Shown in pieces: positions 9,369 to 23,000 of a stretch of 39,579 nucleotides of DNA (within the stretch, counting starts at the first letter, position 1; every line of letters begins with the position of its first letter). The DNA comes from an uncultured Alphaproteobacteria bacterium. GTDB taxonomy: Bacteria > Pseudomonadota > Alphaproteobacteria > RF32 > CAG-239. The DNA lies in the NCBI GenBank assembly GCA_947588275.1, contig CANPYJ010000014.1, forward strand, positions 1 to 39,579. The letters are read 5' to 3'. Below the pieces are notes generated by a model that had not been told where the DNA came from, ran no database searches, and worked only from the letters and a program-made list of their open reading frames with translations. Made by a program: the position numbers and the translations under genes.

Positions 9369-11618
9369 TTATTCTTCTGCCTGCGGAGCGGTTTCGTCTC
9401 CGGAAGCTTCTTCATCTTCCAAATCGTCAAATTCCGAATCGTCAAATTCTTCGTTCGGATCATAATCAATGCCGAGCTTGGCCAACATATCGTCGTTGAT
9501 GTCTTCGCGTTGCGCTACAATCCAGTCGGGCACGTTCGGCGCGGCCGGAAGCTTGCTCAGGGCGCGCATTTTTTTATCCAAATACCAACGCGGCGAATCT
9601 GCCATAATCGGGCGATCAATGTAGCCTTGCATCAGCACGACTTGTTTGAGCATGGGCAGGCTCAGCAGCTGAGTGGAAGAAATGACCGAAACGCCCTGCA
9701 TTTGATAGGAAACATTTTTGGCAAAAGGATTGACGCCTTTGCTGAAACCGCCTTCGTTTTTGGAATAAGAGGTGGTTTGGACGGTTTTGTTGCCAATCAT
9801 CTTGGAAAAACGCTGGGCGGTTTGTTCGTTGTTTTGTGACAAGATAACCTTGCAGGCGGTGGTGGAGATGACGGTTTCAAGGTCATCTTTGCCGTATTTT
9901 CCCGAGATTTGACCGAGGTCTTGGCCAATCAGCAGATAAGACACTTTTTGTCCTCGTCCGACCGCCGGTCCGTCGATAATGGCCTTAAGCTTGGGCATGG
10001 TCGGAAACTCGTCCAGCACAAACAGGCAGGAATAAGGACCCATTTGGCCGTCGGTGGGATTTTTGAACTTGGGCGGGTTGGCAATCAGGTAAGAAGACAT
10101 CAGGTCAATGAACGTGCCGGAAATGACACTCAGAGCGCGAGCGTCTACCTGATTGACCGACAAATAAACCGAAATCGGCTTGAATTCGCCGGTAATCGGG
10201 TCTTTGAGACCACGCAAATCCTTAAAGCTGATGTCACTGAAACTGGTGCGGGCCACGACGGCGGCGTTTTTGAAAATGCCGATGCCGGAAAAAGCGGTCG
10301 AAAGCACAGAGCCGCGCTCTTTGTCAGGCATGGAACTCAGTTGACTCAACTCAACGATACAGCGCTGCGAATAGCCGAATTTGCGCGCTTCGGTGATGGC
10401 CTCTTCCAACAAGTCGCGCATGGGATCGGCCATGGCCGCCATTTGGTCTCCTTCGTCCATGCGACGCTTGATGTCTTGCGACTGTTTAATTTGCGCTTCG
10501 GTAATCCATTCCAGAATCATCGCAATACAGGATTCGTGGCCAATCCATTTTTCGGGCAGAAGCGCCCAAGTGCCGATAGGCAGATAGTTCTCAATGTTGA
10601 GAGTGCCGGCGCGCAGGTTTTGCAAGGCGCGGGCAGCCATCGGGTCGTTCATTTCCAAATAATAGCCTTCAAGAACTTTTTTGTCTTCGTCATCAAGCTT
10701 GCCTTCATAGACGCGGCCTATGAAATAATCGTTGGCGCGGGCTTTTTCGCATTTGGAGACAATGAAGTGAATAAAGCCGGTGAGGGCGGCACGGCCGGTT
10801 TTTGACCAGTGCGGATCTGCGCCGCCTTTCGGGTCTTCAACCAGCACGTTGCACATGGAATCGACATACATATCGCGGCTCGGTCCCGGCGCCGGAACAG
10901 CTCCCGGCGACAGCGGATTCCAGCTCGGATAGTAAATGCCTTCGGCCGGGTTGTCTTCCATACCCCAGTTAATGACAAACACCGGACCGACCTTGGCGCG
11001 AGCGCCGGTGGTGTTGAAACACAGCTCAGGCTTGGGGTCGTTGACGATGATGCTCATGGTCGGCGAGTTAAAAATGGTGGGAATAACCACGCCGGCGGTT
11101 TTACCTGTGCCCGGAGGCGCACAGCAAAGCGTTGACAGTGTTTCTTTGAGGAGCAGCATTTTGCCGTTGAATTTGCCGACAACCTGACAAAAGCCATCAA
11201 AACCCAAAAGCTCCATTTTTTTGATGTCTTTTTCCGTGGCCAGCCGCGCCGCACCGTGAACATTGGATTGAAAACGGTAGGGGTTGGTAATCATGCCGAA
11301 AATAATGCCGCCGGGAAAGCTCAAAAACGGCAAAATCGGCACCCATAAGCTGAAAGAAAACGGCCCGTGATAGCTGAACAGCTGCTTAAACCAGGAAATA
11401 TAGCGCGAAGTCAGATAGTTCGGTCGGTTGAATACCAAGTCAAAAAAGCGTGAAACGTCGTCAATGGTGGCCTTGGAAATGCCCGAACCGATGAGATAGC
11501 CGAGCGGAATGGAAACCAACGCCAGAGCAACGGTTATCAAAAACGATATAAGAATCGTGATGGTCATCCAGCGGACAGCCTTGTTATATTCTTCCCATTC
11601 TTCACCTTTCTTTTCCAT
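9369..11618 (-). CDS. Type IV coupling protein (VirD4/TraG-family ATPase)
   Basis: The 749-aa protein is a membrane-anchored motor that delivers substrates to a type IV secretion channel. Two N-terminal membrane segments lie at about 18-45 and 88-110. Walker A is CAPPGTGKT (166-174), followed by VNDPKPEL. Walker B is CLFVLDEF (about 531-538), then LIGQDLGQISGKYG. The C-terminal tail (about 718-749) is strongly acidic, as in coupling proteins that bind adaptors. RBS GAGGAAAAA precedes the ATG. It lies 12 nt after the 404-aa membrane protein and 12 nt before the HNH-like gene. No VirB/Dot/Tra channel genes are in the window, so partners must be elsewhere or the system is minimal. Confidence 0.85.
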   Translation of the reverse strand: MEKKGEEWEEYNKAVRWMTITILISFLITVALALVSIPLGYLIGSGISKATIDDVSRFFDLVFNRPNYLTSRYISWFKQLFSYHGPFSFSLWVPILPFLSFPGGIIFGMITNPYRFQSNVHGAARLATEKDIKKMELLGFDGFCQVVGKFNGKMLLLKETLSTLCCAPPGTGKTAGVVIPTIFNSPTMSIIVNDPKPELCFNTTGARAKVGPVFVINWGMEDNPAEGIYYPSWNPLSPGAVPAPGPSRDMYVDSMCNVLVEDPKGGADPHWSKTGRAALTGFIHFIVSKCEKARANDYFIGRVYEGKLDDEDKKVLEGYYLEMNDPMAARALQNLRAGTLNIENYLPIGTWALLPEKWIGHESCIAMILEWITEAQIKQSQDIKRRMDEGDQMAAMADPMRDLLEEAITEARKFGYSQRCIVELSQLSSMPDKERGSVLSTAFSGIGIFKNAAVVARTSFSDISFKDLRGLKDPITGEFKPISVYLSVNQVDARALSVISGTFIDLMSSYLIANPPKFKNPTDGQMGPYSCLFVLDEFPTMPKLKAIIDGPAVGRGQKVSYLLIGQDLGQISGKYGKDDLETVISTTACKVILSQNNEQTAQRFSKMIGNKTVQTTSYSKNEGGFSKGVNPFAKNVSYQMQGVSVISSTQLLSLPMLKQVVLMQGYIDRPIMADSPRWYLDKKMRALSKLPAAPNVPDWIVAQREDINDDMLAKLGIDYDPNEEFDDSEFDDLEDEEASGDETAPQAEE

Positions 11619-18540: not shown

Positions 18541-18652
<112 letters not shown>

Positions 18653-18705: not shown

Positions 18706-20779
18706 TTACAATTCTCCGTCGATAAACAACTGTTTATAGTGTTTCTTTTTGGTTTTGTAATGAATTTTTTTGTTTTTTGAGCAAATAGCATATAAGATTT
18801 TGCATCTCAGATATTTGAGGTAATTTTTTATTCTTTTTGACAATATTAAAAAGCGAAGGCCACGCAAAAACGCCTGATTGTCAATTTTGTTTGCGGCGGC
18901 TTGAGGATTGTTGGAAAAGCCGTTGGCAAGGACGTTTTTAATCGTGTCAAGGTTCTTCTTGACTTGGTTTTCTATAAGTTTTGAAGCGTCATGCCCAAAA
19001 TCGCACTTTGAGTTTATGACTTCTTTTACTGAACACACGAAATTCTTTTTGAGATCAAACAGAGTGACCAGAGAATCGAATCGCGCGTTGCCTCTGAATC
19101 GGTTTCTGATACAAACAAACGGTTTATTAAAAATCAAAGCGAAGCACACGCCGTGGAAGGAATCCGTAACCAGCAGCTTGCAGTCTTTTATGCTTTTTAG
19201 CCAGTCTTCCACTTCGTAATTTTTGTTATTTATGGAAACGCATTCGGTTTTTTCGCGTTTTGACAAGTATTTATACAATTCGTCATATTCTTCCTTATCG
19301 TCGAGAATATAACAAACTATTTTGTTTTTATGATTTACGGAGGAGCATGAAATTATTTCGTCGTATTTTGACTTATCAATCAAAAATACCGGATCTATAA
19401 TGGTATCCGCCTCCAGACCGAACACGTTTTTATAAATGTCTTTGCCTGAAACTTCTCGACAAGAGAGGTAATCGAAACTTTTTAACGCTTTGGTCATGTA
19501 GTTTTTTACAAAAGGAGTAAATTTGTTTGATTTTTCAAACTCTGTTTGATCTATTCCGAAACTGGGCGATATGGCTATTTTTTTTGTATTTGCGTCGACC
19601 CAGTTCAATAAAAACTTGTATAACTGTGTGCTTATAAAATCCACCCGAAGGACTTGATCGGAGCCTAAGATTACGCCTTTGACGTTTTTGGACAATTTTG
19701 TTAGCTCTTTATAAGAATAAGATTGCGACACGTTTAAAAATTTGTCTCCGAAGCGCTTGGAAAAGCTCTTTTTAAATAAGTCCATATTATAAAAATTATG
19801 TTGATAAAGCGACAGACTGTCATAGCCGAGGCTTTTTAACAGTTCTTGCATTGCCCAAGCCGTCATGCAGGCGCCGTAATTTGCGGCCTGCCAAAAATTC
19901 ACGATAAGATAATCGCATTTTTCATAAGTCTTAAATCTTTTGTCGTTTTTGCCGATGGCGATTTCTTTGCTGATTGGCCAAGATATTTTTATGTCGTGCA
20001 AAATTGTTTTAATCTCATACTTGACCCTGTGTATGCAATCTTTACCCAACAGCAGTCTTCGGGGCAGTTTTTCGTTTTCGACGACGTCAATCAGCTTGTT
20101 CATCGCGATACAGGTGTCGTTGCGATATTTGCGAATGGTTTTTACGATGTCGATAAAGGGAAATTTGTACTCATCGTATGACGATTCGAATTTGTTTTTT
20201 TCGTTTTTGGAAATGTTGGTCGGATACAAGCCCGGCTCAAAAGCCATCACGCGACAATTGAAATTTTGTGTTTCTTTCCACAAAACGGCCGTAAGGCCTT
20301 CAACGGCGTGTTTTGATGAGCAGTATGCCGTGCCGAACGCTCTGGGGACAAGTCCCATGACGGAAGTGCAGTTTATTATTGTACCGTTATTTCGTTCTCT
20401 GAAATATTTTATTAACGAATGGCAGGTATTGAAAGTTCCGAAATAATTTGTTTCCATTACCCGCCTTACTTTTTGGGGAGATTCTTCTTCAAAGGTCACA
20501 TATGAGGAGATGCCGGCGACGTTTGCCAAAACGTCGATGCTTCCGAAACGTTTTATGCCTTTTTCTATTGCCGCTTTAACGCTCTCGACGTCAGTCACGT
20601 CAACGGATAAGCAAAGGGCGTTTTTTTCCTTAAACTCCGGTATTCTTCTGCTGACGGCCACCACGTTATACCCCCCCCCGGCCGAGCAACTGCGTGCACA
20701 GTTCTTTTCCTATTCCGCTGGAGGCGCCGGTGACAAACCAGGTTTGAATTTTTGATTTATCTATTTTTTTTGTAAACAT
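18706..20779 (-). pseudogene. SDR / polysaccharide pyruvyl transferase fusion, frameshifted at poly-G
   Basis: Read through, this encodes about 690 aa. Residues 1-240 are a short-chain dehydrogenase: TGASSGIG (17-24) for NAD(P), then NVAG and the YCSSK catalytic pair. Residues about 285-600 resemble polysaccharide pyruvyl transferase (PF04230-like: NFWQAANYGACM, GVILGSDQV, VTDSFHGVCFALIF), which adds pyruvate ketals to surface glycans. The C-terminal tail is basic. As written, a run of nine G (20671-20679) shifts the frame, giving 37 aa and then TAA; eight G would restore it. The downstream part could also start at a GTG at 20664. The ATG at 20779 lies 3 nt after the ThDP gene stop. It may be phase-variable rather than dead. 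Confidence 0.75.
20671..20679 (-). repeat. Poly-G(9) tract inside the SDR coding sequence
   Basis: Nine C on the plus strand (G on the coding strand) fall at codons 34-37 of the SDR. With nine, the frame reads GGG-GTA-TAA. With eight, it continues into YNVVAVSRR, the normal second strand of an SDR. Long G tracts slip during replication and underlie on/off switching of surface-glycan genes in several bacteria. Confidence 0.85.
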
Positions 20780-20782
20780 GGT

Positions 20783-21655
20783 TTACCGTCCTTTTTTTCT
20801 GTTGTGAGTTTGCATTAATTTCAGCCCGAGTTTTTCGTCCTCAGCGTTTGTAAAAACTTCAAAAAGCACGGGCTTGTCAAAGTCGTCGTTGCAAAAGCGG
20901 TTTATCTGAGCGTCAAAGGTTTGTTTTGAATCTGCCGTCAAATAACAAAACCCGCAGGATTCTGCCCAACCTTTGGCGCCGCCTTTGTTGTGTCCGTGGG
21001 CGGCTATCAATTGGTCGGTCTTTTCGCCGATGGTGTTTTCCAAGCCCGGGTTTAATCTGAATTCGACGCCGCGATTGTTGTTTATCAGGATTATTCGGAG
21101 ATTGTTGGATATGTCTTTTTGGCCGAGGGCGTTCATGTCGTAGAAAAATGCCAAGTCGCCGACAATGCCGAAAACTTTTTTGTTGTCTGCCACCAATGAT
21201 TGGCCCACCACGGTCGATACGGCGCCGTCAATGCCGCAGACGCCGATGTTGCAGCTGATGTCTATGGAATCGTCAAATTCTTGAAAATTCATATTTCTTT
21301 TGGTGTTGGAAACCGCATGGTGCAACGACGAACCCTGAGGGATATATTTTGCCAGACGTTGAACGACAAACGAATTGCACAGCGGCAGGTCCGGTTTTGT
21401 CAGGCTGTCCATTTCGGCTTTTACGAGGTCATAATATCCGTTGCGGCAATCTGATTTGTTGGTCAGAAGTTCAAAGAAATATTTTTCTTTGCAATCAAAC
21501 GTTTTGGCAACGGGAATGTTGAAACGGTATGTAAAGCTGCCGTTTTCGGAGATTCTCCATATTTCGGCGTTTTGAAACAGCGGCGCGGCATAATATTCGC
21601 CGGAAACGTCGCCGATATCAATGATTATCTCGGGCGTGTTTTTGAGTTTGCTCAT
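20783..21655 (-). CDS. MenD-like ThDP enzyme, C-terminal half (separate ORF)
   Basis: This 290-aa reading frame carries the second half of the central domain and the ThDP-pyrophosphate-binding domain of a MenD-like (SEPHCHC synthase family) enzyme. GIDGAVSTVVGQSL, then GDLAFFYDMNALG and ILINNNRGVEF match the family's GD...NN ThDP/Mg-binding block. The ATG at 21655 sits in an ATGA overlap with the stop of the N-terminal half. The same frame also stays open upstream to 21715, so a single added base near 21683-21687 would fuse the two. In a glycan island the true product may be a sugar precursor rather than menaquinone. It ends 3 nt before the SDR fusion. Confidence 0.65.
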   Translation of the reverse strand: MSKLKNTPEIIIDIGDVSGEYYAAPLFQNAEIWRISENGSFTYRFNIPVAKTFDCKEKYFFELLTNKSDCRNGYYDLVKAEMDSLTKPDLPLCNSFVVQRLAKYIPQGSSLHHAVSNTKRNMNFQEFDDSIDISCNIGVCGIDGAVSTVVGQSLVADNKKVFGIVGDLAFFYDMNALGQKDISNNLRIILINNNRGVEFRLNPGLENTIGEKTDQLIAAHGHNKGGAKGWAESCGFCYLTADSKQTFDAQINRFCNDDFDKPVLFEVFTNAEDEKLGLKLMQTHNRKKGR

Positions 21656-22524
21656 ACCGAAGGCCTGCGTATCATGATGCGGTTTTTGCCTTTGTAATGA
21701 GCCATATGGTCGCAAAATACGGGTATTGAATTTGACACGGCAAAGTTTGACAACGTTTCTTGTTCTTTGTCTGTAAATTTTTTGTGCGAACCGATATATA
21801 TCGCCGTTTTTTTGACCGAAACAACGTCTTTCAGATGCTCAAAGTCTTCCGAACAGTAGTCGTTTTTCCAAATGTCTTTGGGCAGATTTTTGATTTTTTC
21901 GACATCAAAATCAAAGAAAGACGGACAATTTATGTGAACCGGCAAATGTTTGTAAAACGCGGTCGACAAGGCGGCGTTTAAATATGTCAAACATCTGCGT
22001 TTGCCGGTTTCGTCAAATATGCGGGGCAATTCGACGCTGACATACTTGATGTCGTTTTGAGTGACGCTTCTGTCAACAAACTGAGGTCTTGCCGAATAAG
22101 GCGTGCTTTCATAGTCAAAAAAGGTTAGGGCAATGAGCGGAACTTTTCGACGATAGGCTTCACTCATGGCCGAAACGTAATTTCGGCTGGCGGAAGATCC
22201 CGTACACGTAATGATTACCGGCTCGTTTGTCTCGTTGCAGATTCCGTTGGCAACATAGGCGGCACTGCGCTCGTCGATAACGGAAAAACTTTTAATATTA
22301 CTGCTCTGCAACATAAAATTAAAGGTTGCATTTTGGGCGCCTGGACTACAAACAGCGTGTTTTAGCCCGTAGGCTTTTAACATCGCCAAAAGATAATGCT
22401 GCGTATTGTAGGTTTGGTTCGGAGCCAGGTCAGACTTGATTTTGCATTTTATGCCGCAAAACTGCACTTCCCTGTATTGTTTGTTGTCTTTAGTTTTTTT
22501 GGTGACGGAAAATATTTTGTTCAT
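21652..22524 (-). CDS. MenD-like ThDP enzyme, N-terminal half (separate ORF)
   Basis: This 290-aa frame carries the pyrimidine-binding domain of a MenD-like enzyme: CSPGAQNATFNF, then VIDERSAAYVANGI with the conserved glutamate that activates ThDP, then TCTGSSASRNYVSAMSEAYRRKVPLIALT. It runs into the start of the middle domain (IPVFCDHMAHYKGK) and then ends. The break falls inside a domain, not at a boundary, which favours a frameshift over a natural split. Adding one A to the A5 run (minus strand, 21683-21687) would give a single protein of about 580 aa. The ATG at 22524 is preferred; a TTG at 22548 would add 8 residues. Confidence 0.65.
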   Translation of the reverse strand: MNKIFSVTKKTKDNKQYREVQFCGIKCKIKSDLAPNQTYNTQHYLLAMLKAYGLKHAVCSPGAQNATFNFMLQSSNIKSFSVIDERSAAYVANGICNETNEPVIITCTGSSASRNYVSAMSEAYRRKVPLIALTFFDYESTPYSARPQFVDRSVTQNDIKYVSVELPRIFDETGKRRCLTYLNAALSTAFYKHLPVHINCPSFFDFDVEKIKNLPKDIWKNDYCSEDFEHLKDVVSVKKTAIYIGSHKKFTDKEQETLSNFAVSNSIPVFCDHMAHYKGKNRIMIRRPSV

Positions 22525-22629: not shown

Positions 22630-22646
22630 TTAACGGACGTTTAAAT
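22630..22646 (+). repeat. Left arm of 17-bp inverted repeat
   Basis: TTAACGGACGTTTAAAT here is exactly complementary to 22759-22775. The arms enclose 112 bp that include a promoter-like sequence and a third related core (AACGTTCGT at 22673-22681). Each arm is itself an imperfect dyad (TTAACG-GA-CGTTTAA), so it could be a recombination site or an operator. Confidence 0.7.
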
Positions 22647-22728
22647 GCCAACGACTTAGACAAATGCCGAAGAACGTTCGTCTTTTCTTGTTTTTCAAGA
22701 AAAAATAGAGGAGTAATCAAAATAAAGA

Positions 22729-22758
22729 TTGACTTTTGTGCGTGACCGAAAGTATAAA
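22729..22758 (+). promoter_or_regulatory. Sigma70-like promoter inside the inverted repeats, pointing away from the island genes
   Basis: TTGACT (22729-22734) and TATAAA (22753-22758) are separated by 18 bp and read rightward. The only thing downstream is about 130 bp and the bidirectional terminator at 22892-22919, with no gene. If the segment 22630-22775 were inverted, the promoter would face the MenD-like gene starting at 22524. The region 22549-22923 has no other convincing gene. Confidence 0.55.
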
Positions 22759-22775
22759 ATTTAAACGTCCGTTAA
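22759..22775 (-). repeat. Right arm of 17-bp inverted repeat
   Basis: ATTTAAACGTCCGTTAA is the exact reverse complement of 22630-22646. It starts directly after the -10-like TATAAA at 22753-22758. See the left arm for interpretation. Confidence 0.7.
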
Positions 22776-22888
22776 AACTTTAATTTGCGCAAAGAGGCGG
22801 ATAAACAAGCAAATCCAAGCGTTCATCGAATGTTGAAAAAATATGGCGGACCTCGTTGTCCGGTCAAATTCGGCGAAGAATAGGCATA

Positions 22889-23000
<112 letters not shown>

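Follow-up and report, generated by a model that had tools for sequence, protein, structure and literature searches.

An inverted-repeat element upstream of a glycan operon

Could the short segment in front of a glycan operon in an uncultured alphaproteobacterium be a promoter that turns round, and which enzyme would turn it? The segment occupies positions 22630-22775 of the window, that is, of the whole stretch of DNA analysed (39,579 nucleotides). The alphaproteobacterial nature of its host agrees with an addB_alphas match of 860 bits, against a cut-off of 486.5. The evidence presented here makes it very probable that the segment is an invertible promoter (inverton), flipped in trans by one of five Mpi-family invertases encoded in the genome and captured in the OFF orientation in this assembly.

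The element is built on two arms. The left arm, TTAACGGACGTTTAAAT (22630-22646, plus strand), has its exact reverse complement in the right arm, ATTTAAACGTCCGTTAA (22759-22775, minus strand). The arms are complementary at 17 of 17 positions across a gap of 112 nt, just as the original prediction had claimed, and the whole element measures 146 bp. When the whole window was dinucleotide-shuffled 100 times and searched for exact arms separated by 20-300 nt, the longest inverted repeat reached 15, in one shuffle, and the observed 17 is therefore above all 100. Each arm contains the core dyad AACG-GA-CGTT (22632-22641 on the left and 22764-22773 on the right), and the arms are proposed as the left and right crossover sites for inversion of the 112-bp segment between them (22647-22758). 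The exact 17-mer is found in the genome at the two arms only. It is not enriched there when up to three mismatches are allowed (9 places, versus 13 for the control), and neither is the short dyad WWAACGNNCGTTWW alone (8 forward matches, versus 19 for the reversed control). The unit as a whole has one full copy in the genome, with none of the further copies that a transposon would be expected to leave.

The promoter-like sequence and its surroundings

A promoter-like TTGACT-N18-TATAAA lies inside the element on the plus strand, at 22729-22758, with the TTGACT box at 22729-22734 and the TATAAA box at 22753-22758, so that the −10 box abuts the right arm. It is aimed rightward, away from the minus-strand gene whose predicted start at 22524 is consistent with its frame; both the promoter and its direction had been foreseen. 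The standard promoter scan does not report this sequence because it requires T as the sixth −10 base. Our own scan, which has no rule on that base and scores out of 12, gives it 10/12; of 300 shuffled interiors, 10 score at least as high.

To the right of the element the original prediction had seen no gene, only a terminator, and this description holds. A 32-codon frame at 22785-22883 was considered as a gene and rejected, since none of the remaining 151 family genomes contains a match to it. Beyond it stands a hairpin with 15-nt arms (22890-22904/22907-22921), followed on either strand by T and read as a two-way terminator, which would halt the outward transcript. An intact tRNA-Val (cac) comes next, on the opposite, minus strand (22924-23000).

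Mpi-family invertases in the genome and in the family

The original prediction had also called for a recombinase search of the genome. Six resolvase-domain matches were obtained, five of which belong to small proteins whose reading frames stay open over about 200-240 codons. These five small serine recombinases all lie above the curated cut-off of 272 bits of NF009949 (NCBIfam, master DNA invertase Mpi family), with 275.5-311.4 bits, and all five keep the Arg and the Ser of R-x-S as well as the S-R-L-G-R motif. The best solved-structure matches of the invertase on contig C13 are chains named DNA-invertase, 4m6f (5.6e-09) and 3uj3 (1.6e-08). The five genes are located on contigs C1, C3, C5, C12 and C13. 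The resolvase-domain search of the genome placed no invertase on the contig of the window, and none of the three phage-integrase matches in the genome falls there either; lacking a recombinase on its contig, the element would be switched in trans. In the family, the Mpi model finds a match in 129 of the 152 genomes and exceeds the cut-off in 81, compared with none of 14 control genomes.

One of these invertases adjoins a sister element (G000:C13, G000 being the genome of the window). It has perfect 16-bp arms, ATAAATGTCCGTTTAT, spans 143 bp, and sits between the Mpi-type invertase and a gene run that opens with a hexapeptide-transferase-like protein. It holds a TTGACA-N17-TATAAA sequence scoring 11/12, reached by 8 of 300 shuffles, which is aimed at the invertase and away from the gene run. 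Adjacent arms were also looked for at the invertases on C12, C1 and C3, with none convincing. On the remaining contig (G000:C5; locus L030, 3045-6497), the Mpi-family invertase adjoins two hsdS genes and hsdM/hsdR-like frames, and the hsdS genes come with long inverted repeats of 76, 77 and 265 bp. This locus is probably a phase-variable type I restriction system organized as a DNA-inversion cassette.

The operon and its proposed tRNA-bounded island

The operon comprises, in order, a MenD-like thiamine-diphosphate enzyme, a short-chain dehydrogenase and a polysaccharide pyruvyl transferase, all on the minus strand. The pyruvyl transferase domain (PF04230, 116.4 bits) marks it as a predicted surface-polysaccharide operon, and to that extent the predicted position of the element upstream of glycan genes is confirmed; the first two genes, on the other hand, are frame-broken in this assembly. 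The N-terminal part of the MenD-like enzyme (21652-22524) is encoded in a frame that ends early, and its C-terminal part (20783-21715) in another frame. The dehydrogenase frame breaks off at nine consecutive G of the coding strand (20671-20679), after which a single frame (18706-20664) contains the dehydrogenase without its N terminus together with the pyruvyl transferase domain. The nine-G run is a candidate for a second, slippage-type switch acting on the operon.

The operon and the element are enclosed by a duplication of the tRNA-Val. A 74-bp exact second copy of the tRNA 3' end and terminator (22905-22978) is present at 18557-18630 on the minus strand, within a longer match of 108 nt that is 94% identical, and Rfam recognizes a tRNA on this far copy (18579-18644, 30.7 bits). 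These borders point to a 4.35-kb island that would begin at the tRNA-Val 3' end and end at the far copy, holding the inverton and the operon and no recombinase. An island-free tRNA-Val site was not found among the loci examined. Beyond the border of the proposed island, the window encodes a VirD4/TraG-type conjugative coupling protein (9369-11618; T4SS-DNA_transf, 195.5 bits).

The state of the operon bears on the rival explanation that survives best, in which the element is a fossil inverton that formerly switched and is now locked OFF within an island of decaying genes. The split MenD-like gene and the dehydrogenase frame broken at the nine-G run would both fit such decay, as would the narrow distribution of the first protein, whose relatives occur in only 3 of the 152 family genomes, its own included. 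Loss of switching is nevertheless judged unlikely, given that the arms are perfect and that the five Mpi-family invertases have unbroken frames. The broken frames themselves have other possible origins, as runs of nine G are also found in slippage-switched genes and assemblies may hold single-base errors. An intact homologue of the first protein is present in genome G086, and the homologous operon there has no such element within the 2.6 kb examined.

Paired-arm elements in related genomes

The strict paired pattern ACGRACGTTN{96,126}AACGTYCGT, searched in the 152 family genomes, was found at nine places in eight genomes, and its reversed control at none. When the pattern was drawn up, the window, the two G015 copies, G037 and G087 were already known; G050, G053 and G061 are new. 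At five of the nine places an Mpi-type invertase is 12-68 bp away (G015:C6, G037:C7, G053:C59, G061:C1 and G087:C12). At three others, the window, G015:C5 and G050:C72, no Mpi-type invertase gene occurs within the stretch examined, and the G016:C22 place falls inside a coding frame. A common promoter geometry, defined as a promoter of at least 9/12 whose −10 ends 4-9 nt from the core, is present at all of them except G037 and G016: in these seven of the nine, the distance from the end of the −10 to the repeat core is 5-8 bases. Among 300 shuffled sets, the number of places with this geometry averaged 0.29 and never exceeded 2. The sequence AAAGTATAA at the −10/arm position is common to the window, both G015 copies and G087.

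The association was also followed from the side of the enzymes, around 94 Mpi-type invertase genes (30 search-returned loci, the next 60 listed places and 4 loci of the own genome; gap 60-260). Of these loci, 23 have an exact repeat of 12 bp or longer, versus 5.5 on average and at most 11 over 20 rounds of shuffling. The ACG[AG]AC core, chosen once the window and several relatives were known, is present at 10 of the 94, and at 0 in the shuffles. The remaining 71 loci have no exact repeat passing the filter, so that adjacency of element and invertase is common but not general. The search for further copies that the original prediction had suggested was thus productive for elements of like build, which stand beside Mpi-type invertases in the own genome and in relatives, but not for the exact 17-mer, which is limited to the two arms. 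Together with the five invertases, these elements support the predicted reading of an invertible promoter with Mpi-like sites.

The two copies in G015 delimit the unit. The C5 copy, which is far from any invertase found, is identical to the invertase-adjacent C6 copy at 113 of 132 positions. Their 130-bp flanks agree at 75 of 130 on each side, and shuffled sequence gives a mean of 79 and a maximum of 86 of 132; as the flanks are alike at chance level only, the homologous unit ends at the arms. Judging by our reading of promoter calls and frame maps, the promoter would face the operon in G008 and G087 and face away from it in the window, G000:C13, G015:C5, G015:C6, G044 and G053. Its direction in G050 appears ambiguous, with a slightly better match facing the other way, and in G061 it is directed at the invertase. 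As the two directions are seen at different loci, they indicate that the architecture exists both ways, not that any one locus flips.

The G061:C1 inverton (L166:1501-1644) carries a 12/12 promoter, TTGACA-17-TATAAT, and lies between its Mpi-type invertase and a small hydrophobic protein that, by eye, seems pilin-like. In other relatives, a degenerate recombinase-like protein is the product of the gene that comes first after the inverton. This is the case in G008 (L172:2720-3307), G044 (L173:2787-3380) and G010 (L162:7085-7852) and, by eye, in G050 too (L164:321-1070). In the three aligned proteins the R-x-S Arg and both Arg residues of S-R-L-G-R are replaced, as is the Ser nucleophile in two of the three; Pfam Resolvase and helix-turn-helix domains are seen in the G010 protein alone, with none in G008 or G044. 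Such proteins are possibly regulators of the switch or of the operon.

Looser patterns were applied to the 35 genomes of the genus and are not enriched there. The pair AACGGACN{112,142}GTCCGTT gave 2 matches in 2 genomes versus 7 for its reversed control, and the pair GTCCGTTN{102,132}AACGGAC gave 6 matches in 6 genomes versus 5. Context gives meaning to the matches in the window, G015:C5, G000:C13 and G010; the others are in G006, G012, G016 and G024. Outside the family, the paired pattern has no match in the viral collection and hits two records of the bacterial one. In a Bacteroides sp. MAG (L052:299-452), the same arm core lies in 19-bp arms with a span of 154 bp, and in Paenibacillus (L053:90-271) the core occurs in paired inverted copies, four of them close together. 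This clustering of four copies in Paenibacillus means that the short motif alone is no proof of a switch.

The Mpi consensus and the internal dyad

The original prediction had suggested a likeness to Mpi-type promoter-inversion sites of Bacteroides, and the printed consensus comes close to the sequences of the element. The Mpi repeat consensus, given as ARACGTTCGTN in the available text of PMC8375218, is matched at 10 of 11 positions, with one mismatch each, by the left arm, the right arm and a third, internal dyad. The latter, GAACGTTCGTC (22672-22682, plus strand), contains the predicted recurrence of AACGTTCGT at 22673-22681. It has TT at its centre where the arms have GA/TC, and for this reason productive recombination with the arms would not be expected.

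Three similar dyads could also be three operators. According to this second alternative, a dimeric repressor bound to the AACGNNCGTT-like dyads at 22632, 22673 and 22764 would loop the DNA around a fixed outward promoter, and no inversion would take place. The palindromic core suits such a protein, as does the density of the sites, because only six sites of at least 10/11 to the consensus exist on both strands of the 39.6-kb window and three of them fall within these 142 bp of the element. Several observations nonetheless make a set of operators improbable. The identity of the arms spans all 17 bases, past the palindromic core; a fixed promoter would face a terminator without any conserved gene, away from the operon; and relatives carry the like geometry in both directions. 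Operators would, moreover, leave unexplained the link with invertases, as such pairs adjoin Mpi-type invertase genes in five of the nine places. Weakest of all is a small non-autonomous transposon with 17-bp terminal repeats, to which the terminal inverted repeats, the short AT-rich interior and the two similar units in unrelated flanks in G015 might lend themselves, but which can practically be set aside, as there is no second copy in the genome, as the 34 further genomes of the genus yield nothing longer than 90-bp fragments, and as it explains neither the promoter geometry nor the invertase adjacency.

Proposed model of the switch

The invertible promoter is retained as the preferred reading. 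On the other side stand the contig without an invertase, the unenriched looser patterns, the omission of the promoter by the standard scan, the broken frames of the operon and the element-free operon of G086. The proposed model is that an invertase binds to the AACG-GA-CGTT dyad in each arm, would cut at the central two bases and would rejoin the ends with the segment reversed, following the binding, cutting and rejoining scheme of serine invertases in general. The central GA/TC lacks self-complementarity and the arms stand in opposite directions; by established serine-invertase chemistry, this should lead to inversion rather than deletion. Once the segment is reversed, the −10 would come to lie against the left arm, and a transcript would run for about 115 nt before the ATG at 22524 and continue into the MenD-like, dehydrogenase and pyruvyl-transferase genes. 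In the present orientation, the transcript would instead meet the terminator at 22890-22921. Inversion, the choice of one of the five invertases, promoter activity and an effect on a surface glycan are what we infer from the DNA sequence.

A broader model can be put forward tentatively, as an idea that may well prove wrong. The family would run a trans-acting Mpi network, in which resident invertases switch both the promoters that adjoin them and those on incoming, recombinase-less, tRNA-bounded glycan islands that carry cognate arms only, so that a mobile cassette would arrive pre-wired into the phase variation of its host. The operon under the switch would begin, in several relatives, with a recombinase paralogue that has lost its catalytic activity and could feed back on the switch. 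If this is true, a mobile island can bring with it a switch worked by the recipient's own enzymes.

Comparison with known inversion systems

In the literature covered, which is partial (few subscription papers, with the 2019 inverton survey outside it), no earlier description of Mpi-type invertons in Alphaproteobacteria was found. According to the available text of one survey, its 4 alphaproteobacterial samples showed no inversion signature (PMC5903667), and in that of another study Alphaproteobacteria are used in simulations only (PMC10862772).

The Mpi-switched capsular loci of Bacteroides fragilis share with the present element the short inverted repeats round a promoter upstream of glycan genes. 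Bacteroides promoters are of the TAnnTTTG type, whereas the promoter described here is sigma-70-like, with its −10 set against the arm, and its host is alphaproteobacterial. The genome, furthermore, holds five Mpi-family genes instead of a single master invertase, and the element appears to lie inside a tRNA-bounded island. Further points of likeness are the presence of Mpi-family invertases and the proposed action at a distance; the arms come close to ARACGTTCGTN (PMC8375218, available text), at 10/11. In B. fragilis, according to the accessible part of PMC4747536, Mpi inverts 13 regions, seven of which are polysaccharide promoters. The PVR loci of Bacteroides intestinalis, as described in the available text of PMC8375218, consist of 183-186 bp segments flanked by GTTCGTTTAA repeats, in a genome with Mpi homologues. 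They differ in their longer segment, their 10-bp arms and their phylum, and inversion was seen there in reads, while the element described here is known from sequence.

The Hin and Gin systems are likewise driven by a small serine recombinase, and the structure matches of the C13 invertase are to chains named for this activity. Hin and Gin segments carry or border their invertase and need an enhancer; the element of the window, in contrast, has no invertase on its contig. The kind of switch proposed is one known from Bacteroides. What would be new is the alphaproteobacterial host, the sigma-70-like promoter placed right beside the arm, how many Mpi-type genes there are and the location in an island. 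The Mpi-type switching of surface glycans familiar from Bacteroides would be extended to an alphaproteobacterial family.
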